Positions 41,989 to 60,005 of a stretch of 64,000 nucleotides of DNA are shown one piece after another. Position numbers and translations under genes: made by a program. The stretch is taken from NCBI GenBank assembly GCA_023014365.1, contig JAEBUN010000042.1:1-64000 (forward strand). The letters run 5' to 3'. Below the pieces are notes generated by a model that saw only the letters and a program-made list of their open reading frames with translations, did not search any database and was not told the DNA's origin. The first letter of the stretch is position 1. Each line of letters begins with the position of its first letter. Origin of the DNA: Lepiota brunneoincarnata (taxonomy: Eukaryota > Basidiomycota > Agaricomycetes > Agaricales > Agaricaceae).

Positions 41989-44019
41989 GTGGTTGTTAAC
42001 CCTCTCTGCCTTAACTTGGCGTGTTCCCTCAAGAATACCAGACCAAGGTCCATGGGGTCAAGGTGAAAAACATACATTATGAGGAATGTCGGCTGTGGTA
42101 CACCAGTATTGAGTGAGGTTGTAGTGCTAGAATAGTGTAATGGGTACCTAGCAATCAACTGATATGGATAGTGAACATGTTTGGAATGTAAAGTTGATGA
42201 AGCCAAAATGAGCAGCACACATATTGCCAGTGTACCAGTCGTATAATTAATACATGGGCCAAATGCAGGGCCAACACTAAAACTGCCATAAAATGTGCTG
42301 AATGTATATGACACAGGATTCAATGAGCAGCAGGAAGGCTACATGATAGCAAATAATCTGGAGTGGGAAAGAACAATATTACAATTTTAATATTTAACAT
42401 AAGTAATTATGTTACTAGAGCTCAACATCAGGAGTAGGGAAGACTGCATGATGGAATTATTGCCCATTGTCAATATTTGAGATTTTCTGGGCAATATCTT
42501 CTTCAATGAGTTCATCAGCATGCTGGCGTAAGCTTAACAATCTTTTGTAGGCTTGGTCCTGGACAGTGAGCTGTTGCAGCTCTGAATGGTACAGCCTGTG
42601 TGCCACATCCTTGTAACTCAGGCTGAGATAGTGTTGGAGGGCTTTGACTTTGGCATGCCCAGCAAAGAGCTCACGCTCCAAGAGGCTCTGGTGACACAGA
42701 CATCAGGCAGGTAAGGGTCCTGAAGAAGTTTGGTAGGGGCTAGCGGCTTACCGGCACTGCCAGAGCCATTATGTTGCTGCAGCCTATTAGTCTATATGGT
42801 AGATCCTCTTTTGAAACCGGCTAACATAAAAACATTTAGCAGGACAAAAGCCAGATTGCTGGCAAGGGAAATGTTGCTATTGGGAAGGTGTTGGTGGGGT
42901 AGCATTCAGCAATTCAGTCAGGGCTGGCAATATTGGGCCCCTTTGTGGCAACACATGGCCAGCAGCCATACAGGCATTTTTGGCAAGAGCACATGCATTG
43001 CCACCTAATTGGTACAATGAAGGTGCAGTGACAGATGTGCAATACAATGTATGTAGCAGGTCTTAATGGAACAATAACATACTGTTGGTTTAATGTCCCA
43101 AAGGCCAAATAGTTCTTGCATCTTGACATTTTTGTGAGCAAGCTCAGCAGCATTAGTCATATAGCTGGGAACAAGAAGATCTTGCATATTATTGTTTGCT
43201 GGATGTTTGGATGGTGATAGAGTGTCAAGTTGTTTGATATTGACAGGTGGGAAAGGATTCATGAGAGATGGCCCAGTGGAATGCCTCAGACAGAACAAGA
43301 GATATTGTTGTAGTGATAGGAATTGTGGCTATATCTGTATAAAATAAGGCAATTTTATGGAAGTTGGTGATTAGTAAGTGTTGCATTTTGGACTGATCAC
43401 ATGTCCAGGGTTGGAAATTTTTTCAGGTGCATCCAAACAATGCGTTGTTTCCCTTGCATATTCCTCAGCCTATCAAAACATTCATGTTGTGTGATCAAAC
43501 CTTTGTCATCAAAGCCATTTTTAACATGACTACACCCACCACAAAGGAGATCACATTGGCCTTGGAAAAGTATGAGAGCAATGTCCAGCAGGTGCTGCAT
43601 AATGGCCAGGTCACAGAAATGATGGAGACATACCTGGAAGAGATGGTATGTAGTTTGTGCTAGAATTATGATATTGTATCAATTGGCAAGCCACATACAG
43701 CAGAAGACATTTGCGCATACAAAAAGTAACAAGCCAGCAATTCATGCCACTTTCAAAAAACATTGATTCCTCCTCAAATTCATTGTTGCCTGGCATGGCC
43801 AAGGCAGCAATCCAACATTTAATATGGATCAGCTAAATGCACTTGAAAATATGACAAGAAGGTCACAAAGAAGAGTGCCAATAAAATGGTGCATGCTGAT
43901 GAATTGTTTCTTGGCTGCACAGGATTTACTTAGCCACACTTGGAAAAAAGCAGACGGGACAAGTCAGTGGACATTTGCAGGGACAAGGGGCTACGACCAC
44001 CTCCAGCTGAGGTGATACC
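41989..44019. other. Left part of older unit H, unassigned
   Basis: CpG-poor, TGCCA/TGGCA-rich sequence with short broken reading frames on both strands. Examples are minus 42457-42681 (helical, DELIEEDIAQKISN) and plus 43427-43663 (EITLALEKYESNVQQVL). I recognise no protein family. It is continuous in composition with 58239-61607, on the other side of element C. Confidence 0.35.
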
Positions 44020-44323
44020 ATGAAGGCAAACTCTGACCAAGCAACATTTCCAGGACCGATTGAGCTGGCACCAGGAACAAGTACACAACCAGGCACCAAC
44101 TTTGCCAGCCTGCACAGTGAAGAGCAGGCAATGCAACATGCTTTGCTGCTAGTCAGCGCACCTGCCGACAACATTCCGGAAACTTTGGCAGCTGAATGAG
44201 TCCAGCATGTCAGAGCACCAAGATTGGAAATGCCTGAAACATTGGCAGCGGGGCGAGCACATCGGGCTGCAGCATCAAGACCTCCAATTGCTGTATTGTT
44301 GGCTGACACACTGAGCTCAACAT

Positions 44324-44327
44324 CCGA
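44324..44327 (+). repeat. Left target duplication of element C (CCGA)
   Basis: CCGA here and at 58239-58242 directly outside the TGATACAC...CCTTTTCA LTR termini. The H reading frame is continuous when only one copy is kept. Confidence 0.85.
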
Positions 44328-45621
44328 TGATACACCGATTTCACGCCTATACATGAATTCCGTACTCCAGAACAATTCTCTACATAGAATCATTGGCTAT
44401 ATCATTAAAGAACTCTATAGAGGATTGGTACTATATCCCGTAGTAGCCAGTTCGACTGAACTGAGGATATTCGAGCCTCAGAAGTGTTCAAACCAGCTCA
44501 TTATCACTAAGCTTAGTGAACCAAGCTATCAGAATGCTCTCCGGAGGGATTCAGGACTCTACATAGCCTATCGAGTATACCCCGGTCGCATCAAGGGACC
44601 TTATGAGCAGTTTTCTGATGAACCCAAATGCGTTTGAACATAAAAGAATGTACCTAGCGGCTGTTGCAGGTGTATTATGTCTATAGCGAGTTCAATAATG
44701 ATGACCGGACCACAGAACAGAACGTCCAACGTTCGGGAGGCAATACCCAATGCCCAAAACCCTAGAAATATCAAAGACTCCTAATTAACAAGTGCTTTGT
44801 GGGTCCCGGCACTTCGGCATACTGCTTAACTGAGATTAATTACAACAGATCAAGGGATTGTCCATCCACTATACATTCCGATCATAATTGATCCGGAAAC
44901 TTAACGCGCTCACGTGGACGCAGAATAATGCAGACGAGCACAGAACACGTCTGGCTGGATTGCCATTCGTTAATCAGAGAAAAACCCATAACCCAGGGTG
45001 AGGTAGAAATGCTGCTGAACCTTCCAAAATGTTCTACAGTGCCTGTAACAATTAAGCTTATTGTTTTCTATTTCATATTTACTATCTCTCGTATGTATCT
45101 AAACAATATAAATATGGTCGCACTTGTTTGTGGAGAAGCAAGAGGTCTCACCCCTGCTTCCACATGCAAGTCTGCAAGCCGTGATCAAGAACGGTTTCAG
45201 AGGGCTATTTAGTGTGCATTGTTAAGTGTGATTTCTTCGGTCATCGACCAACCCAGAGACAGAGACAGAGACCAGAGTTCAGAGTTTAGAGTTCCAGAGT
45301 GCTAGAGACAGAGACAGAGACAGAGACCAGAGTTCAGAGACTAGAGACCAGAGACCCAGCACTTTGAATTGACAGGGATTGTCCTTTCATTGTTGCACCG
45401 TACGGCTAAGATAACTTCAACGGCTGTCCATTAACCTCTAAAAACACTACTCTCTTGAATTTTGCTGTCAGAACGCACCCCCAGAACACCCTAAAAGACA
45501 AAACTGTTCTTTATCTATCTCATTCCACTTGTATTAGCTTAAGCTTATCGAATTGTGGCTAAGCTTAGTGAAAACAAGCCCACTATCTATATTAAAACCT
45601 ATGAAAGTTTCTACCTTTTCA
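44328..45621 (+). repeat. Element C 5' LTR
   Basis: TGATACACCG ... CTACCTTTTCA. TATAAATA at 45107-45114. A GAGACA/GAGACC-type simple repeat at about 45257-45360 is 48 bp longer than in the 3' LTR. Contains TAAGCTTA at 44508, 45053, 45540 and 45560. Confidence 0.93.
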
Positions 45622-45623
45622 TC

Positions 45624-45640
45624 TGGAGCCCACCGCGAGG
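45624..45640 (+). other. Candidate primer-binding site of element C
   Basis: TGGAGCCCACCGCGAGG starts two bases after the LTR. TGG is the complement of a tRNA CCA end, and the rest would pair with a tRNA acceptor/T-arm. I did not assign the tRNA. Confidence 0.6.
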
Positions 45641-45751
45641 GGGGTTTTCAGTTGAATTTCACGAGACAAACACCAAAAGACTTGGACACTGGCCCGCCTT
45701 TCACCTGCGAAGCAGAAAAAGGTTCAAGCAAAGACTGTAAAGTCACCCAAA

Positions 45752-47668
45752 ATGTCCTTCGAGAACAGTCTCAGGAAGGTCGACCCCCCAAAACAGAGAA
45801 CTACTTGGAATTCCAATCGTCCAGAAGGTTCTGAAGGCCTCATCGCCGCTAGTACCTCTCGAAAGCAAAAAGATCCTGTTAACTCTTTAGCTGCGAACAC
45901 AGTGAGTGGTTCAGCAGTTGCAGTATCGAGAGAAGTCGCACCGCCGACCTCTACTGCTCCCAGAATTACTATAAGGCTTCCAGCCTCAGCTCACAACATA
46001 GCACATATTCTGCACACCAAAAGCCAGGACGGTCAGACTGTTCCTACGCTAAGCTTAGCATTTACAAACCAAAACTTGTTTCATACAAACCCTCCTGGTG
46101 CCTCTACGGTACCACAGATATCACAGTCAACTCCGACTGTACAGACAAACCAAACTATGCCATCTACAACGACTACAGCTAGTAAAATGGGACACGAGCA
46201 TATGCCAATTCCCTTTAGCAATAATGCTCCCAGATGGGATGCATCAAAACCACAGACATTGAGAAATTATCTCTGGACACTTGAACGGCTCTTCACAATA
46301 ACAAAGACGACGGACAATGCAGAAAGGATAAATTGGGCAGTGTCATATGTGGACCAGGATATCCGTGAAGAGTGGATGAGTTTTGCGGAGTTCCCAGCAG
46401 GAAGCTGGACAGGCTTCATAGAGAGATTGAAGAAAGAGTATCCCAAGACTGTGGCAGCCGAGCAGGGCTCAGTGTGACAATTGAGGGAACTCTGCGCATA
46501 GAGTAGAGGCATTGCAATGAATGAGGAGCATAAAGTCTTGGACTTTAAAAGGTGATTCATTCTCGAAGCAGAGAAGTGTCCGAAGTCGCCGGCGGTAGTC
46601 TTGAACCGAGAACTAGTCAAGTTATTTATGAGCGCACTGGACTCGGTGTTCCAGGATGTACTCAATGTGAGATTAGTGATCACTGGGGCGCGTAGAACCG
46701 CAAGCGATGGATTGGCACTGACTGCGAAGGATTTACGCGAAGAGGACCCCTATGATTGGAGGATTGTTGTGGATAAAGCCATTGAAATTTCGATTGGCAA
46801 AACACTTATGCGATCCCTTCATCAGGATTTGAGGCCGGTAAACTCGGCATCGATGAGCCATCCATCCGCAACGTCCAGAACAGGGACTTATGACCCGGTA
46901 GTAAAGTGAGAGCTGCAAAGCTTAAAGCAGAAATTTCAGGATGAAGTCTCACAGATGGCAGGTGGCCTCGCTGAGCTTAAGGACCTCATGAATATCCAGG
47001 GGCATACCCTAAAATCATACTTAGAGAGCTTGGCGAAAGACAGACATAATCATGCTGGTTATAATCACGCTCAGAGGAATACCGGAAGTGGGTCGGCAGG
47101 GTCGCTTTCCGACCACAAGTGTTTCTACTGCTGGTTATTAGGGCATAGTTGGTTATTCTGCCTGGACATGGAGGCGGATAAACAAGCTGGCCGGATTAGA
47201 GTTGAAGGGAACAAAATATATATGGGAGATGGCTCAAGTATCCCTCAAGGAGAAGGGCCTATTAAAGAGAAAGTGGCAAAGTACTATGCAACAAAGGGAC
47301 AACTCTTCGTTCAGATACCAGAACTGCTGGAGGTTGAGCCTGAGTTACCGCAAGTGCCAACGTCAGCAGTGTTTGCACAGAGAGCGTTCCTGAGGTCAGA
47401 AAACCAAAGGTCACCAGTGGAAGAAGAAGTCCGCCGTCTGAAGCAGCGCATGGAAATGTTGGAGACAGCTGCCATCCATGCCAGGAGTGCCCCAAAGGTT
47501 AAGCTTATGACCAGGAAGGAGGATAACGTCGAAATACAGTCTTTGGCCGAGCAATTGGCCCAGATACAGGCTAAGCTTAGCAGTTTGATGGATGGTACAC
47601 CCTCGGCAAGCCAGTATTTGGACACCAGAAGTGGCACAAAGACTAGGAACTTGGAGTCGGGTTTCTAA
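45752..47668 (+). pseudogene. gag: Element C gag
   Basis: Begins at ATG 45752. S/T/P-rich start, capsid-like core (WDASKPQTLRNYLWTLERLF, REEWMSFAEFPAGSW), basic/coiled part, and a CCHC knuckle CFYCWLLGHSWLFC at 47120-47161. A heptad-like region (RRLKQRMEMLETAAI) and IQAKLSSLM follow. In-frame stops at 46475 (TGA), 46499 (TAG), 46553 (TGA) and 46907 (TGA) interrupt one continuous frame, each explained by C-to-T. It ends in TAA at 47666, directly after a slippery heptamer. Confidence 0.85.
47659..47668 (+). promoter_or_regulatory. -1 frameshift heptamer G-GGT-TTC at gag/pol of C
   Basis: In the gag frame the codons are GGT-TTC-TAA preceded by G. G-GGT-TTC fits X-XXY-YYZ exactly, and the -1 frame (after the slip) is the one that encodes protease and is open across this point. 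The gag stop follows at once. A downstream stem was not modelled. TAA could alternatively be a decayed CAA, in which case the shift site is still in place. Confidence 0.6.
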
Positions 47669-50600
47669 AGGGTTCGAGGAAGGAGCTGGCTCTGAAGAAG
47701 AAGGTCGCCTTCGCCAGAGGACAGACTCCTGAGGACGCGTCGGATTCTGAGCGATCAGAAGAATCAGAAAATGAGGAAATAGGGCAGACAACGGAGAAAC
47801 CAATGCATGCCACAGCAGGAGAATTACCATATAAGAATGTGAAACCACTGTGCCCGGTCGTTGAGGTACCACCGCTGCCTGTCAGAAGGATGGAATCATC
47901 CAAGAAGGAGCCTGTGTATAAGCACCAGGCCCCTATAGAGAGGAATGTCGATGTTGAGGAAGTACTCAGCAGGGTATTGAAGTGAGAAGCCTCAGTATTG
48001 CATGGAGAACTCTTGGCATTGTCACCTTTATACAGGAACGCTTATAGAGAGCAAATTATGAGAAAATGGGTACCCATGAGTCAAAGCTTAATAGCAGGAG
48101 TAGGGCCTGGGGACGATGATACAGAAGATATAGAGATTAATAGTGGGCCAGTACAAGTCATGATAACAGAGCTAGCAGACGGTCCTCGGAAGTATGATAC
48201 GGTGCTCCGGGAAGGCTTGGCAACCCAAGCCTGGGTAGCTCAGGATCCAATCATGCAGTACTTGGAGTCACTGCCCCGAAGAGACAGGGGACGGCAAGTG
48301 TTTATTGCGAAAGAATGCGAGCCGTTGAGAGTAGTGCCAACTCTGATAAATGGGATTTGGCAGGAAGAGGCCTTGCTAGATAGCGGGTCACAGATCATCT
48401 CCATGAGTCAGGAAGCGGCGATTGCATGTCAAGTTTCTTGGGACCCAGATACTATGATAAATTTGCAGAGTGCAAATGGGCAGGTTGAAAAGACTTGTGG
48501 ATTGGCAAAGAATGTAGGCTTTACCTGCGGGGGAGTCACAATCTATTTGCAAGTTCACATCGTTTGCAGCCCCGTGTATCGAGTACTCCTGGGATGACCC
48601 TTTGATGTAATGACGGCTAGCGAAGTCAGGAATAGCGCCAGTGGCGAGCAAACCTTGGTTATTATGGACCCAAATACCAGAGAAAGGGCTGTGTTACCAA
48701 CTTATGCTTGAGGAGAGTGTAATCCTCCTAAGCTTAGGGAAAACAGTCAAAATTTTCAAGAAACCTCAATGAGTTGACTGAGGAACAAGGAGAGGTGGCT
48801 TGTATAATAGACTATGATGATGAGAAGGGCCCTGTCGTCGCACAAACACTAAGCTTAGTGAAAGGAAGCTTCTCAGAGGCTGAGCTACAGCTAATGTTCA
48901 TTGACCAAGTCATACGCGATGAGGACTGTCCACAAGAAGATAAAGCGACGGCGTTATTGTGCCTAGGATGCATAGCCAACACACAGGGCACAGAGGACCA
49001 GGGAATAACTGTCTTCGAAACAGAAGAAGATGACGAAGATACGGTACAATGCCTGGCTGGGAAGAAATATAAACCAGTAGTCTTAAAAGTGAGGCCAGTG
49101 TTGGGTGATCTACCGGAGAGATTCAGGATAAAACGAGAAATAAAAGGGGACCCACTGGCAGAAATGCCTGAGCTTAGTGTGCATCCTCCAGAGTTTGTCC
49201 CGACAGGCAGATATACGGAGGAGCGTAAGCTTAAGCTGGACGAAGCCCATGCAGGGGATTTCTTGTGGCCAGAGGAAAGAAAGCTGATGCACCACATCAT
49301 GATGCTTCAAGAAAAGGCATTCGCCTGGACAGATGAGGAAAAGGGATGTTTTAGGGAAGATTTCTTCCCACTGATCGAGATACCAACAGTAGAACATACT
49401 CCGTGGGTTGAGAAGCCCATTCCAATTCCACCAGCAATCTATGATGAAGTTTGTGCCATTATAAAGAGAAAGATTAGTGCTGGTGTATACGAGCCGTCGA
49501 ACTCATCCTATAGATCCAGATGGTTCTGTGTGGTGAAGAAAGATGGGAAAAGTTTGAGACTGGTACACAGCTTGGAACCGCTGAACAAAGTGACGATAGT
49601 GCATTCAGGACTGCCGCCAGCAATGGAAGATTTGGCAATGCACTTCGCAGGCAGAGCTTGCGGAGGCATTCTGGATCTATATGTTGGCTATGATGAACGA
49701 CTGTTAGCTGAGTCATCTCGGGACTTAACAATGTTCCAGACGCCTTTTGGAGTGCTACGCTTAGTGACGTTACCCATGGGATGGACCAATTCAGTGCCTA
49801 TATTTCATGAGGATGTAACAGCAATCCTAACCAGTGAGATACCAGAATACACGATGCCGTACATAGATGATGTACCTATCAGAGGACCCAAAACTAGATA
49901 TGAGTTGTCAGATGGCACAGAAGAGACGCTGAAAGAAAACCCAGGGATCCGACAATTTGTATGGGAACACATGCAGATGGTCAATAGGATTCTACAGAGG
50001 ATGAAATATGTAGGAGGAACCTTCTCTGGGCCCAAGATGACTATCTGCGCTGATGAAATCACCATAGTGGGTTTTGAATGCTCTTATAAAGGATGGTTGC
50101 CTGCCACAGACACCATTGGGAAGATATTAAGATGGGGGGATTGCGAGAATGTCTCCGAGCTAAGAGGTTTTCTAGGAACAGCTATGCGCTGCAGGAATCA
50201 TATCCCGAAGTTCATAGCCATTGCTGCACCTCTATACAAAAAGCTTAAGAAAGGGCAAGAGTTTGAATGGGGAGAAAATGAACGGAAAGCGCAGCAGGAG
50301 CTGAAAGATGCAATTCAACGCTGTTTCCCGACCAGGAACCCTGAATTCCCAAGTAAACAACCCATAGTAGTAGCCGTGGATACCTCATGGAGGGCGGTGG
50401 GATACTACATATATCAGCGAGATGGAGAAGATGCTAAGCTTATACATTATGCGAAGTTTGGGTCAATATTATTGGATGAGAGACAGCAGAGGTATTCTCA
50501 GCCCAAGCAAGAGCTATGCAGCTTAAGAATGGTGCTGGAACAGGAGAAATATTTATTGTGGGGATCGAGAAATCTAGTAGTGGAAACAGACGTGAAGTTT

Positions 50601-52523
50601 CTCTTTGGGATGTTAAACAACCCAGGAAAACTCCCAAACACTACTGTAAACCGTTGGGTGGACTTCATTAGATCGTTCCACTTCACACTAGTACACAAAG
50701 AAGGAAAGACATTTGGGCCGGATGGACTGTCCAGATGACATTACTATCCCGGTGATGAGACAGCCCGTCGTTTCGACGACGGATCTGAGGACGAGGGAGA
50801 GGAGTTCGAGTTGATCAAAGAAGATCCGGGGGCTGCAGATCCGTTACCCTTGGAAGCCTTCTGTGATGAGATTGACAGTTGCTCTGGCTTCTACCAGGGT
50901 CTGGCGCATGATGTGTATGATTTTGAGTATGAGCTGGATCAAGCTCGGGAAGAGTACTTGGATGAACAACAGGCTAAGCTTAGGGTTATAGAAGACCCAG
51001 CCTGTCCAGAAAACCATTGACAAGTACTAAGCTTAATGACAGATGTCAGGCTAGTGCCAGATTTCGAAGAGGAAAAGTTGACCAAGATAGAGGAAGCATA
51101 TGATGAGTCATGCAGGACAGATACAGCGCGAATACAGGACAAAAGAATACCCAAAGTCAGGGAATACCTGAAAACAGGAGGCAGTAGCGCAGCTGAAGGC
51201 TTGGATGAGCTGGATCTGCATAAGCTTAAGCATATGGTGGAGCATTTCTTCTTGGACAAAGAGGGGAGACTGTATAGGATGAGCCCTAGTGGTCAGCATC
51301 AGCTAGTAGTGGATAAGGAGCAATGTATGTATATGTTGCGAGCCAGCCACGACTTCCTAGGACACAGGGGAATATACGCAACCACTAAGCTTATAACGCA
51401 GAGGTTCTGGTGGCTGGAAGTTGAAGGAGACGTAGCTTGGTATGTGCAATCATGCCATCTATGCCAGCAATGGCAAAAGGCAATCATCGAGACGCCGCCA
51501 ATAGTAACGCCCACGCCGTCAATATTCCAAGTGCTACATGTGGACACACTATATATGACGCCAAGTTCTAATGGGTGTAGTTATATTGTGCATGGAAGGT
51601 GTGGACTGTCATCCTGGATGGAGGCAAAAGCGTTGAGAAAAGAGAACGCCAGTTCGATCACGCAGTGGTTATTTGAAGATATCATTTGCCGATGGGGCTG
51701 TATAGTGAAGATTGTCACGGACAACGGTTCTCCATTTAAGAAAGCTGTTCAATGGCTGGAAGAAAAATATGGGATAAAAGGAGTAACAATATCTCCTTAC
51801 AATTCCAAAGCAAATGGGATTATTGAAAGAGCCCACTGGGATGTGCGGCAAATGTTGTACAAAGCTACAGATGGAGATGTCAAAAAGTGGTATTGGCACC
51901 TACCACACGTTATGTGGGCAGATCAGATAACCATTAGAAAAGGAATGGGGTGTTCCCCGTACTTTCTGGTAACTGGAGCACACCCAACGCTACCTCTGGA
52001 TGTCAAAGAGGCCACTTGGCTAGTGCAACTACCAAATAAGTACTTAACCACGGCCAAGTTGATAGGATACCAAGCTCAGGCTTTGGCAAAACATGTTCGG
52101 CATGTTGAGGAGGTGCGTCAGTGTGTTTCAGACACTAAGCTTAGCAAGGCTTGGGAGATGGAACAACAAGCAGTGCATAAGATAAAAGATTATCGCTTCG
52201 GCCCGGGAGATTTAGTATTAGTGAGAAACACAGCTATAGAGAGCTTAGCAGACAGGAAGATGAAACCCAGGTATCTAGGACCCATGGTGGTCATATCTAG
52301 ATCAAAGGGAGGATCATATATCCTGGCAGAGTTAGATGGCTCTGTATGGCAGAATAAAGTGGCGGCATTCAGAGTAATTCCCTACTTAGCCAGAAAACAT
52401 ATGCCATTGCCGCTGGAGTTACAAGAGTTGTTAGATCTGTTGCCAGAGGGACTGAAGAACCTGGAGGAGACTACTGAGGATGAGCCTAGTGACAGATGGG
52501 AGCCAGAAGAGTTGGAGGGATAG
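47669..52523 (+). pseudogene. pol: Element C pol (protease, RT, RNase H, integrase)
   Basis: Protease EEALLDSGSQIISMS near 48370. RT with LDLYVGYDERLLAESSRD, FQTPFGVLRLVTLPMGWTNS and active site YIDDVPIRG (about 49859). RNase H VAVDTSWRAVGYYIY (50372), PKQELCSLRM and VVETDVKFLF. Integrase HHCC (HDFLGHRG ... CHLCQQW, 51344-51465), then D (LHVDTLYM), D (IVTDNGSPF, about 51712) and E ([11 protein letters not shown]). No chromodomain; the C-terminus is acidic. TGA at 47983, 48595, about 48709, 50736 and 51018 each replace a likely CGA. A one-base frame change near 48760 separates protease and RT. Several TAAGCTTA motifs lie inside conserved coding sequence and are read as K-L or L-S. Confidence 0.88.
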
Positions 52524-52603
52524 GAAAAACCTGATATTGTGGACAGAACTATCTACTTATCGAAGGAAAACTATCCTGGGGACTGTAAAAGCATTAAGCT
52601 TAA

Positions 52604-53962
52604 GCAGGGGAGGACTTGTCCAAGTCAGAAAGGTTGCGCAAAAGGCTTTTGAGATGGATGCGCTCTTGAATGAGGAATTGGAACCTCTTTAAGTTGGCTT
52701 CGAGCGAGGGAATAGCATCGATGAAGTCCCGGCTGAGCGAATTGAGGTCACATTTGACTGACCGAGCGTCATCACCACAAGATTCGGATTTGTACTCATC
52801 ACAAGAGTGAGACAGGAGGTTTTGGAGTTCCTGGAGCAAACGAGCTGCCTGGGAGAAGTGTCAGGACCATTAAGCTTAGTGAAGAGAAGTGAGAAATTGC
52901 CCACCAGATAAGCCCGCAAAGGTGCACTCATCGGAAGTAAACTCGGTACGGGCACGCTTGGCAGTATTGGCGTTGGCTTTGGCTAGAACCTGTTCAGCCC
53001 AGGCATAACAGCAGTGTTTAGTGTTCATATTGGGAACTCGACAATAAGGAAGAAGACAGACGGTGCCTTTAGACAAGGAGGACTTTTTGACGGCCTCCTA
53101 GCAAAGGATGAAGTCAGAATCAGTGGTTAGGGGGAGTAGAGCTGGTGCACCACGTCGGAGGTAGACAAACGACGCTTGTGATAAGGCGAGACTACACGAA
53201 CCTCTGACTACACGAACCTCTTCGACGATAGCTTGAGAGACCTCCTCATCGACCATCATGTCCTGGAGGCAAGCGATTATCTCAGCCAATGTAATAGGTT
53301 GAGAAGCAGCTATATTACTGTGTCAGCACCAGTTGCTCGGGAGTTGGAAGCACTGGTCATACTCTCAGCAAGCTCGGTATCGGTGTCTACCACAACAGCA
53401 GCAGAGACAGGGGCCTTGCGACCTTTGCAAGGCTAAGCTTATACATGAGGAGACGATTGGAGCCAAAAGAACGCTAAGCTTATGCGTTTGGGGACAGCAG
53501 AGCCTTCGGCAATGTTGGAGGAAGTAGAGCCAGTCGTGGACGATGGGTTCTGAGCCTCTTCAGTCCTGGATTTGTGAGATTCTTCAGAATGAACACAATT
53601 AATGTGGCTACAGCATTCAGAGAGCGCCTTATAGATTGCGGGCATCTCATAAGACAAATGGTAGTTGTTTTGGTAAATTTCGTAGAGCATGCGGATACGG
53701 AAGACATAGTCCTGGTTGACATGAAGCTTGATAGCCTCATTATCCTCCAATAATGCTTCAATATAAGCAGACTAGAAATGATTTAGAAACGGTGAGAGAA
53801 GCATGGAAAGAGTAGACATACCCCAGGGGCGTCGAACGCAAGGAGAGCCTTCTCGATGAGGGGACGAGTGACTTGGCGGTTTTGCAGGTGCTGAAGATGA
53901 CCTTTGGCGTTGCTGATGAGATCGTCGAGCTTGACCTGGAGATGGGGGATAGAAGAAGCCAT
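52604..53962 (-). pseudogene. Antisense gene 1 of element C (spliced, function unknown)
   Basis: Starts at ATG 53962, 45 bp after a minus-strand TATAAAAG. Exon 1 53962-53822 (47 codons), intron 53821-53772 (GTATGT..TAG, 50 bp), exon 2 from 53771 (SAYIEALLEDNEAIKLHVNQ). Helical sequence, a Cys/His cluster (CCSHINC), S/T-rich part, further open pieces (ITLAEIIACLQDMMVDEEVS; KGTVCLLPYCRVPNMNTKHCC) and a helical end (LKRFQFLIQERIHLKSLL) stopping near 52604. A 16-bp tandem duplication near 53190-53222 and TAG/TAA codons suggest damage, or further introns that I could not resolve. Two TAAGCTTA motifs lie in it at 53434 and 53475. No known domain recognised. Confidence 0.55.
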
Positions 53963-54006
53963 TTTCTTGCAAAGGGTGTCTGCTAGAATGAGATGTCACT
54001 CCCTTG

Positions 54007-54014
54007 CTTTTATA
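54007..54014 (-). promoter_or_regulatory. TATA box for antisense gene 1 of C
   Basis: TATAAAAG on the minus strand, about 45 bp upstream of the ATG at 53962. Confidence 0.5.
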
Positions 54015-54236
54015 AGAAAAGGCCGTAGGCAGTGATGACGAATCATAACGAGTGGATGAAGAGCACCCTCCACCCTAAGCTTATGACCTGAGGGGCCTAG
54101 GAAACCTGTAATCTTGAGTAGCCAGCCTTTGACAGACTTGCTGAACCACAGTTGCCTTATTAGGTAACATATTGCCAGGGTCTCGCGGTTATCAGTGTGC
54201 ACAGGGATTCTGATGGAATGGTGAGGGCACTGATTT

Positions 54237-54257
54237 CAATTTGGCTAGGGGGAGATG
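54237..54257 (+). repeat. Internal copy of the element C polypurine region
   Basis: CAATTTGGCTAGGGGGAGA followed by TG, matching 56974-56994 (just before the 3' LTR) at 20 of 21 positions. The two copies bracket antisense gene 2 exactly. Confidence 0.8.
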
Positions 54258-54647
54258 GGTCCCAAGGGGCACTTCAGTTTGACAGTTTGATGCGAGCTTT
54301 TTCATGAAGAGCTTTTTCGAACATCGTGGACAGGCTGGTTCGGGCTTGTAAGTAAACCAGAGTGGATGAGCCGGGTCACTATGCGTTGCGGGTCACGGCG
54401 CACTGAGATGTCAATAAACATCACTGATAGATCAGAGAGGCATATAATGAGTATATAAGTGACTGGCAACCTAAACTAGCTTAGGAGTCTCCCAGGAGGT
54501 CTTTAGCTTAGCTTTAGGAGATGACAAGAAAGTCAGAAACGGTTTAGCTTAACTCAGTAGGAGACAAGGAACAACAAGATGACTATTGGGATGTATATAC
54601 ATGACAAGATTATATACTACATCCAAGAAGTAAACTAGGCGCAGAGA

Positions 54648-56665
54648 TCACTCAAGGTCTTCTAGAACAGACTCCGGATCCTGAGTCATCAGGAAAGCGA
54701 GGAAGAGAAGCGATTTGAGCTCCTCAAATTCCTCATATGTTGGGACCCCCAGAAAGTTGTTGGCAAACTCAAAGAATGCCCGGACGTCTTCAAGGGAGTC
54801 GGCCATACCCATCTCTACAAAAGCCACGTCATTACCATCCAAGGCAGTCCTGGTAGCTTGCATCTCCTGGACGAATTGGTAAACTACACAGCGGTGGTGA
54901 AACGCCGAAGCCTCATAAGCGACGTGGTTCACCTCCAGGCTGACCAAGCTAGAGGACACAACACGTGCAAATGCGGCCAGATCTAGAAAAATAAAGAGAA
55001 TAAGAAAAGGGAAAAATAGTGAACAGAGAAACTTACGGTATTCACTGGTCAGTGAGGATGTGACCAGGGCGTTTGCAACGCCGGCCGAAACCTGGGGATG
55101 GTCCACGAAGGTACAAGGGTAGTTGTACAAGTCGCAGCTGCAACACTTCTTACCCTTGCCCAGAGGCTTGCACTCCAACTTACGAGCAGCGCAAGAAGGA
55201 CACCGAGACCGAGGTGGCACGTACTGGAGCAGATGTCAAAGCCATCAGTAAGGAACCACGAGAAAACTTGGAGAACGTACCGAAAGCTGGCTAACTGCCA
55301 GCAGCCTAGGAAAGTCCTCACAAAAGAGTGGGACTGGATGCCGGTATCCATGGTCCTGGATAATTTTGGCCTCAGAGTGCCGAACGCAAGCTCAGGGAAC
55401 GTATTTCTTTGTCCACGTGTTGGAACTCTTCTTGGACAAAAGGACGCGTTGTTGACGCGACGGGCCAGCATGAGGGGACTCTTGAGGGATCTCCGGAACC
55501 ACCAGGCTAGGCAAACAAGAAAGGATGGGGGTCGGAGAAGCTAAGAACGCGTCTTGAAAAACAAAAGTCGGTTCTTGAGGGGCAGGCAAAGGCTCCAGAA
55601 GGAGCTCCAAATCTGGAGAAGGAGAAATCTCCATGGTGCTTGCGGGAAACTCAACTGGAGCGCCAGCTAAGTGAGGTGGTGATGGTGTTGGGCACCTAGG
55701 CGAAGCCAGCACATGTTGCCCATCCAGAGACGAGGACCAGCTAAAGATTTTAAAGAGGTCAGCTTGAGAGACCTCAGGGACTGAAGAACGCAATGGCAAG
55801 TTTGAATTTGCCAAGAATAGAGGCGTCGATGGTTTTGCCTTCTGTTTGCCTTTAAGGGCAGCTGGGATATGCGCTAAAGCGGAAGTTAGCAGAAAGGACA
55901 AATATACCTTGTAAAAGACTAAGCTTACGTGTTGAAACAGTCGAAGAGGCTACGGGAGAGGAGGGGCGGTTTGTTGAAGGGCCCAGCACCTCTGAACCTG
56001 ATGCAATACCCAGGGGAGGGAGCACCAGCGAGCCTTCACCGTCAAGGGAGCGCAGAGAGACGGCAAGAGGGGGCAGCGACATTAAACTTGACGAGGCCTC
56101 TGTGGACAATCCACCAGAGGGCCCGCCAATGGGGATACCTGACGAGGGTTCTGCGGAAAATCCGGCAGAGCGCTTGTCAGTTGGATTGCACAACGACGCG
56201 ATGGAAATCACGCGTCTTGGCACTGGAGCGGACAAGGGAGAGGCCAGCAGAGGAGTTGGTGCATGAGGCAGAGAGTACGGTGGAGGAGGGGTCCTTGCTA
56301 CACCCACCTGACGATTTCTGCGAGCTCCTCGAGCTCCTTGCCCTCCTCTAGCTCTCCTAGTACACGGTGCTGGTGGTTCCCATTGAGGTAGGAGGTTGCG
56401 ACACGCCGGAAGGTGAATAGTGAGACCTAAAAGTAGAGAAAACATAAGTAAAGACAACGAGAACAGGGGAAAACGCGACTTACATTGCGTGATCGATGAT
56501 GAAGGCGCGCCTTGGGAAGCCGTTGAGGCATTGCTCGGCCCAGGGTAGCCTGAAAACAGTGTTAAGAAAACAGAGAAAACTGTAACTCGAACTCTACTTA
56601 CTGGAAGAAGAGTCCAAGTCCTCCTCGTAGCGAGCATGTTTGCTGCTGCACGTGTTTCTGTCCAT
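54648..56665 (-). CDS. Antisense gene 2 of element C: spliced zinc-cluster (Zn2Cys6-like) protein
   Basis: Exons I can support: 56665-56602, 56549-56486, 56426-55929, 55873 to about 55400, 55223-55037 and 54982-54648, with GT-AG introns in phase (donors GTAAGT or GTAAGC; acceptors CAG/TAG). The segment 55400-55270 is not resolved: either another exon or damage. The long N-terminal half is S/P/R-rich and disordered. The zinc cluster is CPSCAARKLEC, eight residues, CCSCDLYNYPC (CX2CX6C-X8-CX2CX6C). The C-terminus is helical (YEEFEELKSLLFLAFLM) with an acidic end. Likely nuclear DNA-binding (inference). The intron 3 donor itself overlaps a GTAAGCTTAG motif, and no TAAGCTTA lies between 54083 and 55919, where the zinc-cluster exons are. 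Confidence 0.72.
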
Positions 56666-56982
56666 TGTTGATAGAAGTGGGTGTTGAAAAGTGAATATGT
56701 GAGCAGGATAGACAAGTAAGAAGTGAGAGGGAGAATGAAGGAGATGAAACGAGACCTTGGGACATTTAAAAGACCCAATAACAAGATAAAAATTTAAGCT
56801 ATAGCAACAAGAAGTTGATCTATACATTTAAACTTGGTGACATGACATCATTCTGAAATAAGCTTAGCAAAAGTGCGCTACCCTCAAAGCTGGTGAACAT
56901 TCTAGACCATAGAGTGTGTCAGAGAGACTCAGATACTGTGAATTTAAAGGAGATAATGACTGAGGACAGTCAGCAATTTGGT

Positions 56983-56992
56983 TAGGGGGAGA
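56983..56992 (+). other. Polypurine tract of element C
   Basis: TAGGGGGAGA immediately before the 3' LTR start TGATACAC. Confidence 0.75.
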
Positions 56993-58238
56993 TGATACAC
57001 TGATTTCACGCCTATACATGAATTCCGTACTCCAGAACAATTCTCTACATAGAATCATTGGCTATATCATTAAAGAACTCTATAGAGGATTGGTACTATA
57101 TCCCGTAGTAGCCAGTTCGACTGAACTGAGGATATTCAAGCCTCGGAAGTGTTCAAACCAGCTCATTATCACTAAGCTTAGTGAACCAAGCTATCAGAAT
57201 GCTCTCCGGAGGGATTCAGGACTCTACATAGCCTATCGAGTATACCCCAGTCGCATCAAGGGACCTTACGAGCAGTTTTCTGATGAACCCGAATGTGTTT
57301 GAACATAAAAGAATGTACCTAGCGGCTGTCGCAGGCGTATTACATCTATAGCGAGTTCAATAATGATGACCGGACCACGGAACGGAACGTCCAATGTTCG
57401 GGAGGCAATACCCGATGCCCAAAACCCTAGAAATATCAAAGACTCCTAATTAACGAGTGCTTTGTGGGTTCCAGCACTTTGGCATACTGCTTAACTGAGA
57501 TTAATTACAACAGATCAAGGGATTGTCCATCCGCTATACATTCCGATCATAATTGATCTGGAAACTTAACGCGCTCGCGTGGATGCAGAATAATGCAGAC
57601 GAGCACAGAACACGTCTGGCTGGATTGCCATTCGTTAATCAGAGAAAAACCCATAACCCAGGGTGAGGTAGAAATGCTGCCGAACCTTCCAAAATGTTCT
57701 ACAGTGCTTGTAACAATTAAGCTTATTGTTTTCTATTTCATATTTACTATCTCTCGTATGTATCTAAACAATATAAATACGGTCGCACTTGTTTGTGGAG
57801 AAGCAAGAGGTCTCACCCCTGCTTCCACATGCAAGTCTGCAAGCTGTGATCAAGAACGGTTTCAGAGGGCTATTTAGTGTGCGTCGTTAAGTGTGATTTC
57901 TTCGGTCATCGACCAACCCAGAGACAGAGACAGAGACCAGAGTTCAGAGACCAGAGACCAGAGACCAGAGACCCAGCGCTTTGAATTGACAGGGATTGTC
58001 CTTTCATTGTTGCACCGTACAGCTAAGATAACTTCAACGGCTGTCCGTTAACCTCTAAAAACACTACTCTCTTGAATTTTGCTGTCAGAACGCACCCCCA
58101 GAATACCCTAAAAGACGAAACTGTTCTTTATCTATCTCATTCCACTTGTATTAGCTTAAGCTTATCGAATTGCGGCTAAGCTTAGTGAAAACAAGCCCAC
58201 TATCTATATTAAAACTTACGAAAGTTTCTACCTTTTCA
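56993..58238 (+). repeat. Element C 3' LTR
   Basis: 1,246 bp, same termini and order as 44328-45621, with a shorter GAGACA/GAGACC repeat near 57918-57973 and scattered transitions. Contains TAAGCTTA at 57173, 57718, 58157 and 58177. Followed by CCGA (58239-58242). Confidence 0.93.
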
Positions 58239-60005
58239 CCGACTCCCACAAGCCATCAGAATCACCACCACCCCTTCCGTCAAATGACAAAGGCAAATGC
58301 AGAGCTGTGCTGCACCACTGGGCCATTACAGACATGGAAATGGATGGACCACAACAATCTAATAGGCTGCCACAGGCCCAACGTGGGCCAGCAGTGCCAC
58401 AAGGTAGCTGGCCCTATCACATTCCACAGCCAACTGGCCAGCTATTTGACACAGCATGCTGGCAATGTGTCCAAAGCAAGGTTCTATGTCAGATTGATGC
58501 CAGCGGAGGTGCCTGTTGCCACTACAGGGTCAAAAAGGTCCAATGCACAAATTATGCAGGTATTAGGCAGGGGGTTAATTGCATACAAGTACCAACACCT
58601 GTGCCACAGCACCCTCTGAAATGGCAAAGGGGAATCAAAGAAGAAGAGGTCATGAAATGGGTCAATATCGATACCGATGATGACAACCAATTGAATTGGA
58701 CAAATTCAGAGGATGAGACAAAGGCCATGGCATGTCGGCAGGCTGCCAAGGTCGTGTTGTCAAAGGCTGCAGCACAGGCATCAAGGGCCAATGCAAAGGG
58801 GAAGGCTAGGGCCATGGAGAAGGTAAGTACCTCGGCACTGGCCAAAACCATGGCATCCCATGGCAATGGTGCTGACCACCTGGCAACTAGCCACCCCATG
58901 CCAAATTTTCAGTAGGGGCCGGATGATAATGAGGGATATGAAGAGGGTAAGCTATTACTAATCTCATGCAGGAATTTATGTTCACTCACTCACAATGTCT
59001 ATTCAAGCCATGGGTTTGGTCCAAGAACACTTGGATTATTTTGACCAGTGGCTGATCAAACATTTTAGCCATACTGAGGGTAAAGCACTCTTCCAGGCTG
59101 CACGGATTTTCAAGATGGAGGAAAGTATGAAGGGCTTTTACACTTGGCTGGATGAAATCCAAAGCCAGATTGTTGCCAGAATGCCAGCACTCTTGCTGGA
59201 CTTAGAAAATCAGGTTGGGAACTTGGAGAAATTGGTTGAGAGCCTGTCCCAGCAGGTTGGAACATTAGTCACAGGTGTCATGGGTGGCACTGGTATTACT
59301 GATGCTAGATACACTAGGGAAACAGGTGGAAACACAGCCATAGCGATGGATATTGATGCCGGCCCATCAGGTGTAATACCAGTTGAGCACCCTCTGGCTA
59401 TTAATCCCCCAGCTACCGCACCACACTCACTCTCCCCAATCAATCTCACCACCGACCATGCAACAACTTTGCCAGCACACCAATGCTCCTCACCCCTGGC
59501 CTTGCTGCAGCCATAATCCCAATCACCACCTGCATTGGCCATACTGCCACTGGCAGTACCTCAAGTCGAATTCTATGACCCGACCCAGTCCAATAGGCTG
59601 GGTGATCACACAATATTCTTGACATTGCCATCTGACATACCATGTACCAATGAGAAGCCAGCAATGAATGATGTCTTACCACCATTAAGGCCAGCCTTGC
59701 CAGTGTCTGCCTCAGTAGCATCCCCCATTGCCACTACAGATGACAATATGCCAGCAAATTTTGTTGGGAGTTTGCCGAGATCATCCTCAATGCCAGCAAC
59801 CACCTTTCAACCAGCAAGTCCTTCATCCCCAGTACCAGTGGCAACTTTGGCTGTTCCACCCACCATGTCTCTACCACCACTCCCCTCCTCCCAGCAAACA
59901 TTACTGCACCATCATCACCCAATGCCACCACATCGCATTTCCTGCTTACTGGCCACCCATCCAGTGCCAATGTCTCTCTTCCCTCTCCTGTTCCCAGTGC
60001 CATAA

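Follow-up and report, generated by a model that had tools for sequence, protein, structure and literature searches.

The question raised by this locus is why a single short word should be written again and again into one mobile element. The stretch analysed, hereafter the window, comprises 64,000 nt (positions 1 to 64,000) of contig JAEBUN010000042.1 of the basidiomycete Lepiota brunneoincarnata, and element C occupies its positions 44328-58238 (13,911 bp). Element C is a Ty3/Gypsy long terminal repeat (LTR) retrotransposon in which LTRs flank gag-pol, in the order protease, reverse transcriptase (RT), RNase H and integrase; after pol it carries two spliced-looking genes on the minus strand, both modelled by eye. 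The word TAAGCTTA, a perfect 8-bp dyad, occurs 27 times in C, with a density of about 2 sites per kb across the LTRs, gag-pol and the antisense region, and once in the other 50,089 bases of the window; for AAGCTT the counts are 32 and 9. An earlier note on this DNA had given the same two counts for the element and about nine AAGCTT outside it, and each of the 24 positions that it listed begins the octamer exactly.

Chance and base composition are both ruled out as sources of the excess by shuffles and genome counts. When the LTR is counted once (12,665 bp), C holds 23 copies of the word, whereas 200 dinucleotide-preserving shuffles of that part average 0.16 and never exceed 2, which corresponds to a roughly 140-fold enrichment; no 8-mer of any kind exceeds 8 occurrences in any shuffle. 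A second-order Markov model predicts 0.22 copies, making TAAGCTTA by far the strongest palindrome in the element, and eight other palindromes of the same composition have 0 occurrences each. Across 55.6 Mb of the genome (95 contigs) the word is found 5370 times, compared with 419, 518, 586, 675 and 842 times for five palindromes of the same composition (three contain CpG; the two CpG-free ones are those counted 419 and 586 times), and the equal abundance elsewhere in the genome that could have undone the earlier observation is not seen. The pattern RCTAAGCTTAGY occurs 1715 times genome-wide, its reversed form 5 times. C-type copies amount to at least 67 by RT and at least 101 integrase rows other than those of a sister family, D, and by eye most of the first 100 genome places listed for the word form C-type arrays. 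Within C the sites show a random-like spacing with no regularity (5000 random placements). The longest gap (54084-55919), singled out by the earlier note as covering the zinc-cluster exons of antisense gene 2, loses its meaning here, as half of those placements have a maximum gap no longer. The sole octamer of the window outside element C lies at 42529-42536.

The word is also strictly kept. The comparison set consists of both halves of ten other C copies, hand-chosen from 67 listed and aligned to C, some of them partial (the second half of L026 is without C sequence, that of L022 spans 1.1 kb and the first half of L025 is rearranged). The sites of C are intact in 227 of 232 aligned instances, compared with 74,543 of 121,092 (61.6%) for all octamers of the element, so that motif positions are indeed conserved between diverged copies. 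In the motif columns, 5 changes are seen in 1861 cells, where a trinucleotide-context model based on the rest of the element predicts 84.7. The deficit recurs in each region (0 vs 20.9 in the LTRs, 5 vs 44.4 in gag-pol and 0 vs 19.5 between pol and the 3′ LTR), in agreement with the earlier description of a word dispersed over LTRs, gag, pol and noncoding DNA alike. The C copies share ancestry and the cells are therefore non-independent, but the 17-fold deficit, found in every region, is judged to survive any plausible correction for kinship. Divergence along the eight bases is 0.013, 0.004, 0, 0.004, 0, 0, 0 and 0, against 0.094 one base before and 0.039, 0.181 and 0.198 at the three bases after (mean divergence 0.070). 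Longer palindromes such as ACTAAGCTTAGT, to which attention had been drawn, are not the conserved unit, as their flanks change, and what stands is their central 8 bases. The base directly outward of the word is G in 25 of 46 half-sites and C in 2, a preference that is alike on both sides. The aligned parts show a single gain of the word, which arose from TGAGCTTA at 49169 and is present in two copies. Every C copy examined that is larger than a fragment contains the word, and L029-L031 (9.6 kb each, with a diverged or broken gene 2) hold 19, 16 and 10 copies; its absence from other members of the family, another possible refutation, is not the case. Altogether, the pattern of substitutions indicates that strong purifying selection acts on TAAGCTTA as a DNA word, and by the same comparisons C provides a very clear example of a scattered retrotransposon word kept by such selection.

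AAGCTT sites without one or both outer bases may count as partial sites. Five of them are unchanged, in 10 aligned instances for each of three AAAGCTTA (at 46917, 48083 and 50240; possibly weaker sites), and in 10 and 8 for GAAGCTTC and GAAGCTTG, respectively.

Protein function does not provide the reason for this conservation. Among the 23 sites of the single-LTR part, 11 lie in gag-pol frames, eight read as AAG CTT (Lys-Leu, KL), three as TA AGC TTA (Leu-Ser-Leu, LSL) and none in the stop frame. At the four integrase sites the motif residues match C in 34% of cases, against 55% integrase-wide (BLASTP, best 120 listed of 868 homologs among the candidates scored), and at one site in RT in 29%, against 50% overall (about 25 homologs). 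A protein constraint on KL or LSL in integrase is thereby ruled out, the motif residues occupying protein-variable positions, and the earlier contention that coding constraint is not the explanation holds. Because site residues vary among homologs and 9 of 15 KL codon pairs in gag-pol are AAGCTT, the word seems to have entered places where the protein tolerated it and to have stayed fixed there since. The time at which selection could operate is suggested by the LTR pairs of C and seven other copies (some LTRs being partial), which differ by 3.2, 1.2, 0.6, 1.6, 0.2, 1.9, 5.2 and 8.6%. Since six of these eight pairs differ by 0.2-3.2%, far less than the ∼7% between copies, most divergence predates insertion and arose in active source lineages, where selection can act. 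A neutrality comparison between LTRs after insertion (0 changes vs 1.1 expected) has no power. Transitions in CpG/TpG/CpA contexts make up most of the differences among C copies and reach 28% in a single trinucleotide context (L009-L028 against window positions 44326-56990), and this heavy CpG transition load suggests that the C lineage faces cytosine methylation.

The word is moreover specific to its family. Sister family D, present in the same genome as 10 rows at 94-100% integrase identity, has a pol 65% identical to that of C. A 16.3-kb D stretch (from C17) contains one TAAGCTTA, and D lacks the word at all five C sites located in C-D alignable parts, so that the sister-family check proposed earlier points to a family-specific word. 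For D a candidate palindrome of its own is moderately supported, namely GTTAAC, mostly as WGTTAACWA, with 9 sites and 11 matches in a 14.5-kb element against ∼0.6 expected from the genome rate (2291 matches, both strands); GTTAAC is intact in 30 of 32 aligned D instances (2 changes vs 9.8 expected). At the place of gene 2, D has a relative with 32% identity over 102 aligned positions (E 3.6e-4), and gene 2 is 25-32% identical between C and D, against 65% in pol. Four TAAGCTTA with the spacing of the C LTR are also found at G000 C1:683509-684567, beside L032 and probably inside a D element.

Classical fungal Zn2Cys6 factors follow the pattern CX2CX6CX5-12CX2CX6-8C and often bind dyads as dimers. 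The spacing in gene 2, CX2CX6C-X8-CX2CX6C, fits this pattern (Pfam PF00172), and the gene is described here as encoding a putative Zn2Cys6-type cluster, a label taken from cysteine spacing. Its six cysteines are invariant in ten C copies (spacing 2-6-8-2-6), L029-L031 with their broken gene 2 being outside the alignment, and they are also found in one D copy with spacing 2-7-8-2-7, where the first loop is one residue beyond the pattern. The loops between the cysteines, the part that would touch DNA, differ between C and D. Within C (eight copies), the ratio of nonsynonymous to synonymous polymorphism (pN/pS) is 0.31 and 0.16 for the two gene 2 exons and 0.29 for exon 2 of gene 1, values by which all three are evolving under constraint. 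No protein homolog of gene 2 is found at E 1e-3. At 55140-55142 on the minus strand this copy reads CCSC, a private change, while CRSC or CHSC stands in the nine remaining C copies of the alignment.

The explanation favoured here, in which our confidence is evenly divided, is that TAAGCTTA is a candidate binding site for a sequence-specific, most likely dimeric protein, most likely the gene 2 product, and serves element-wide self-recognition. That the word is bound, that gene 2 supplies the binder, that it dimerises and that chromatin is affected are all inferences from the patterns described. The six-cysteine protein of gene 2 would read the word, most likely as a dimer because the word is a perfect dyad; the dyad together with the two-sided flank preference, the strictness of the eight bases, the indifference to coding and the specificity to the family argues for a dimeric DNA-binding protein encoded by the family itself. 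About 2 sites per kb would let such a factor coat the entire element and tell C from host DNA and from sister families. As the sites are dense throughout the body and not only in the LTR, the benefit would most likely be at the level of chromatin along the element rather than at a promoter, the element being kept open or re-opened against silencing, as by VANC for VANDAL transposons; activation of its sense and antisense transcription would be an alternative benefit.

Several observations weigh against this explanation. Pfam Zn_clus (PF00172) matches the cluster of neither C nor D at E 10, a PDB search finds no zinc-cluster chain better than AlcR at E 3, and AlphaFold models of the zinc exon (predicted local distance difference test, pLDDT, 50) and of the following exon (pLDDT 62, a low-confidence long helix) are, respectively, unusable and too weak. 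Classical Zn2Cys6 proteins mostly read CGG triplets, and TAAGCTTA contains no CGG; gene 2 fits the cysteine pattern in C, fails the Pfam match and is not counted as a family member. CpG decay, taken as a proxy, reveals no local footprint of hypomethylation near the sites, with transitions at 182 of 306 CpG (0.595) within 20 bp of a site and at 1304 of 2427 (0.537) beyond 250 bp. In D, all six cysteines are present in three of the six stretches that cover the cluster (C74, C9 and C26), another has Tyr for the first cysteine and two are without a matching frame. The D word was picked post hoc, its composition excess is weak (10 vs 3.0, best of 64 hexamers, p 0.0012) and, among the eleven other palindromic hexamers tested for conservation, some AT-rich ones are equally kept (ATATAT 0 vs 5.5, TAATTA 1 vs 4.6, AATATT 1 vs 5.5).

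Other explanations differ in how much of the evidence they can absorb. The predominance of transitions in CpG-related contexts leaves room for a mutational artefact, in which a CpG-free octamer mutates slowly or gene conversion homogenises the copies. As a full explanation this is refuted, and we give it the least credence of all, as the expectation of 84.7 changes is already corrected for context, octamers of the same composition elsewhere in C are intact in 1128 of 1664 instances and other palindromic octamers in 308 of 424, and the enrichment itself would be left unexplained; nor is long-tract conversion able to explain columns 2 and 3 bases outside the motif that change at 0.146 and 0.133 (both sides pooled). 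Hardly more credible, and disfavoured, is a role as integration addresses, whereby a factor tethers integrase to existing copies, which would suit the presence of sites in every C copy beyond fragment size. Of 226 genome LTR ends, 100 were listed; 25 of these belong to listed C bodies, and five lie inside one, three of which are seemingly the element's own shifted LTRs, leaving about 2 nested ends against 1.9 expected among 75. A function at the level of RNA is improbable as well. The self-complementary UAAGCUUA could drive dimerisation, packaging or condensation of retrotransposon RNA, in which the sites would lie, but 27 strict 8-base sites with freely changing flanks imply no conserved stem, and known RNA dimerisation signals do not look like this.

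If the word is read as DNA, the reader need not be the product of gene 2. The main rival, unlikely but the strongest of the competitors, is a host transcription factor or chromatin protein that binds TAAGCTTA and for which the element has acquired many sites, to its benefit in transcription, insulation or positioning in the nucleus; the antisense genes would then have another role. Selection on the word as DNA speaks for a host binder; against it stand the failure of D, with its 65% identical pol in the same host, to use the word, the concentration of listed genome places in C-type arrays, and sites that run through coding sequence with no clustering at promoters. It is somewhat less probable that antisense gene 1, and not gene 2, encodes the binder. 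Its exon 2 is under similar constraint and D has by eye a similar-looking frame at the same place, but the Pfam search gives gene 1 no DNA-binding signature (its sole match is LPP20 at E 0.04), and tblastn of exon 2 against D finds nothing significant (best E 4.1).

To our knowledge, only one group of plant DNA transposons, VANDAL of Arabidopsis, encodes proteins that identify their own family by a short word scattered through it, and these VANC proteins are the nearest precedent for the proposed mechanism. VANC is a transposon-encoded reader of a short family-specific word, YAGTATTAY for VANC21 and AGTTGTCC/AGTTGTAC for VANC6 (PMC5735166, PMC10398659), and from one related family to the next the word changes and the protein diverges, as may be the case for C and D with their candidate words and dissimilar gene 2 products. 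The VANC words are described as lying in non-coding regions and accumulating as tandem repeats (PMC5735166), whereas C is a fungal LTR retrotransposon whose 8-bp palindrome is scattered over coding and non-coding DNA, with 11 of the 23 sites of the single-LTR part inside gag-pol frames and a random-like spacing, and it is not classed as a VANC system. The likeness is one of word pattern, binding and demethylation in C being conjectured from sequence. A 2026 meeting report refers to unpublished studies of how the structure of VANC and its target co-evolve (PMC12859917). Some plant LTR elements also have a long region between pol and the 3′ LTR with antisense genes suggested to be nuclear or predicted to bind DNA; unlike in C, the protein domains are others, and the portion seen mentions tandem repeats and no dispersed word, the function of these genes being called unknown (PMC7264820). 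Boty-type elements of Botrytis are a fungal counterpart with an antisense extra gene, brtn (PMC7264820, PMC8365987), likened to C by description and not by sequence, for which the consulted part of the source mentions no repeated word (PMC8365987). Within the open-access literature searched, no paper contains TAAGCTTA as a whole word, and no listed title or abstract opening reports a fungal retrotransposon with a word of this dispersed and conserved kind.

A broader proposal, more tentative than the binding site itself and rather to be doubted than assumed, is that a fungal LTR clade practises self-recognition by means of an antisense zinc-cluster protein and a palindromic word, repeated dozens of times along the element and set even inside gag-pol codons, the two co-evolving so that each family reads itself only. 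Such a system would parallel VANC by convergence, in a different kingdom and a different class of transposon. If true, a fungal retrotransposon came independently to self-recognition through dispersed words, coding sequence can carry such words, and the antisense genes of LTR elements gain a function. With its putative word-protein pairs in C and D, the idea lends itself to direct testing in vitro.

Features of element C (window positions; a site is one occurrence of TAAGCTTA)
Feature	Position	Strand	Remark
5′ LTR	44328..45621	+	TG...CA, 1294 bp, 4 motif sites; flanking repeat CCGA
3′ LTR	56993..58238	+	1246 bp, 4 motif sites; preceded by purine tract GGGGGAGA
gag-region open frames	45656..47668	+	several frames in this copy; gag named from position alone
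Aspartic protease frame	47986..48597	+	gag-asp_proteas PF13975, E 1.4e-6
RT / RNase H frame	48738..50738	+	RT_RNaseH PF17917, E 5e-11
Integrase frame	51021..52523	+	Integrase_H2C2 PF17921, E 7e-14
Antisense gene 1, first two exons	53481..53962	-	MASSIPHLQ... / SAYIEALLED..., intron 53821-53772; by eye
Antisense gene 2, several exons	54651..56665	-	zinc-cluster exon ~55235-55037, next exon ~54982-54651; by eye
Six-cysteine cluster of gene 2	55113..55202	-	CX2CX6C-X8-CX2CX6C; alignment of copies
Site	44508..44515	.	5′ LTR
Site	45053..45060	.	5′ LTR
Site	45540..45547	.	5′ LTR
Site	45560..45567	.	5′ LTR
Site	46050..46057	.	gag region, codes LSL
Site	47500..47507	.	gag region, codes KL
Site	47572..47579	.	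gag region, codes KL
Site	48729..48736	.	between protease and RT frames
Site	48850..48857	.	RT frame, codes LSL
Site	49226..49233	.	RT frame, codes KL
Site	50435..50442	.	RNase H, codes KL
Site	50975..50982	.	RNase H-integrase linker, codes KL
Site	51028..51035	.	integrase frame, codes LSL
Site	51221..51228	.	integrase, codes KL
Site	51386..51393	.	integrase, codes KL
Site	52136..52143	.	integrase, codes KL
Site	52595..52602	.	pol-3′ LTR region
Site	52871..52878	.	pol-3′ LTR region
Site	53434..53441	.	gene 1 region
Site	53475..53482	.	gene 1 region
Site	54076..54083	.	upstream of gene 1
Site	55920..55927	.	gene 2 region
Site	56859..56866	.	upstream of gene 2
Site	57173..57180	.	3′ LTR
Site	57718..57725	.	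3′ LTR
Site	58157..58164	.	3′ LTR
Site	58177..58184	.	3′ LTR

Element C starts with TG, ends with CA and has the 4-bp direct repeat CCGA on both flanks. The Pfam search gives no gag match in the gag region and no match to the RT domain at E 0.1, RT being assigned from where its frame lies and from a YIDD run recognised by eye. No relatives are found in IMG/VR, from which records near the genome of the window were possibly excluded. Organisms named among the best 120 of the 868 integrase homologs are Cyclocybe (59%), Armillaria (56%), Candolleomyces, Moniliophthora and Mycena, all of them Agaricales. The element seemingly interrupts another open frame (43926-44327 and 58239-58915), whose cysteine run near 58450, CWQCVQSKVLC...CCHYRVKKVQC, resembles a zinc cluster; the sole Pfam model listed for this frame is Zn_clus, at a non-significant E of 3.2. 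Both LTRs also contain short tandem runs of CAGAGA/CCAGAGAC, of unequal length, at 45254-45360 and 57919-57975.

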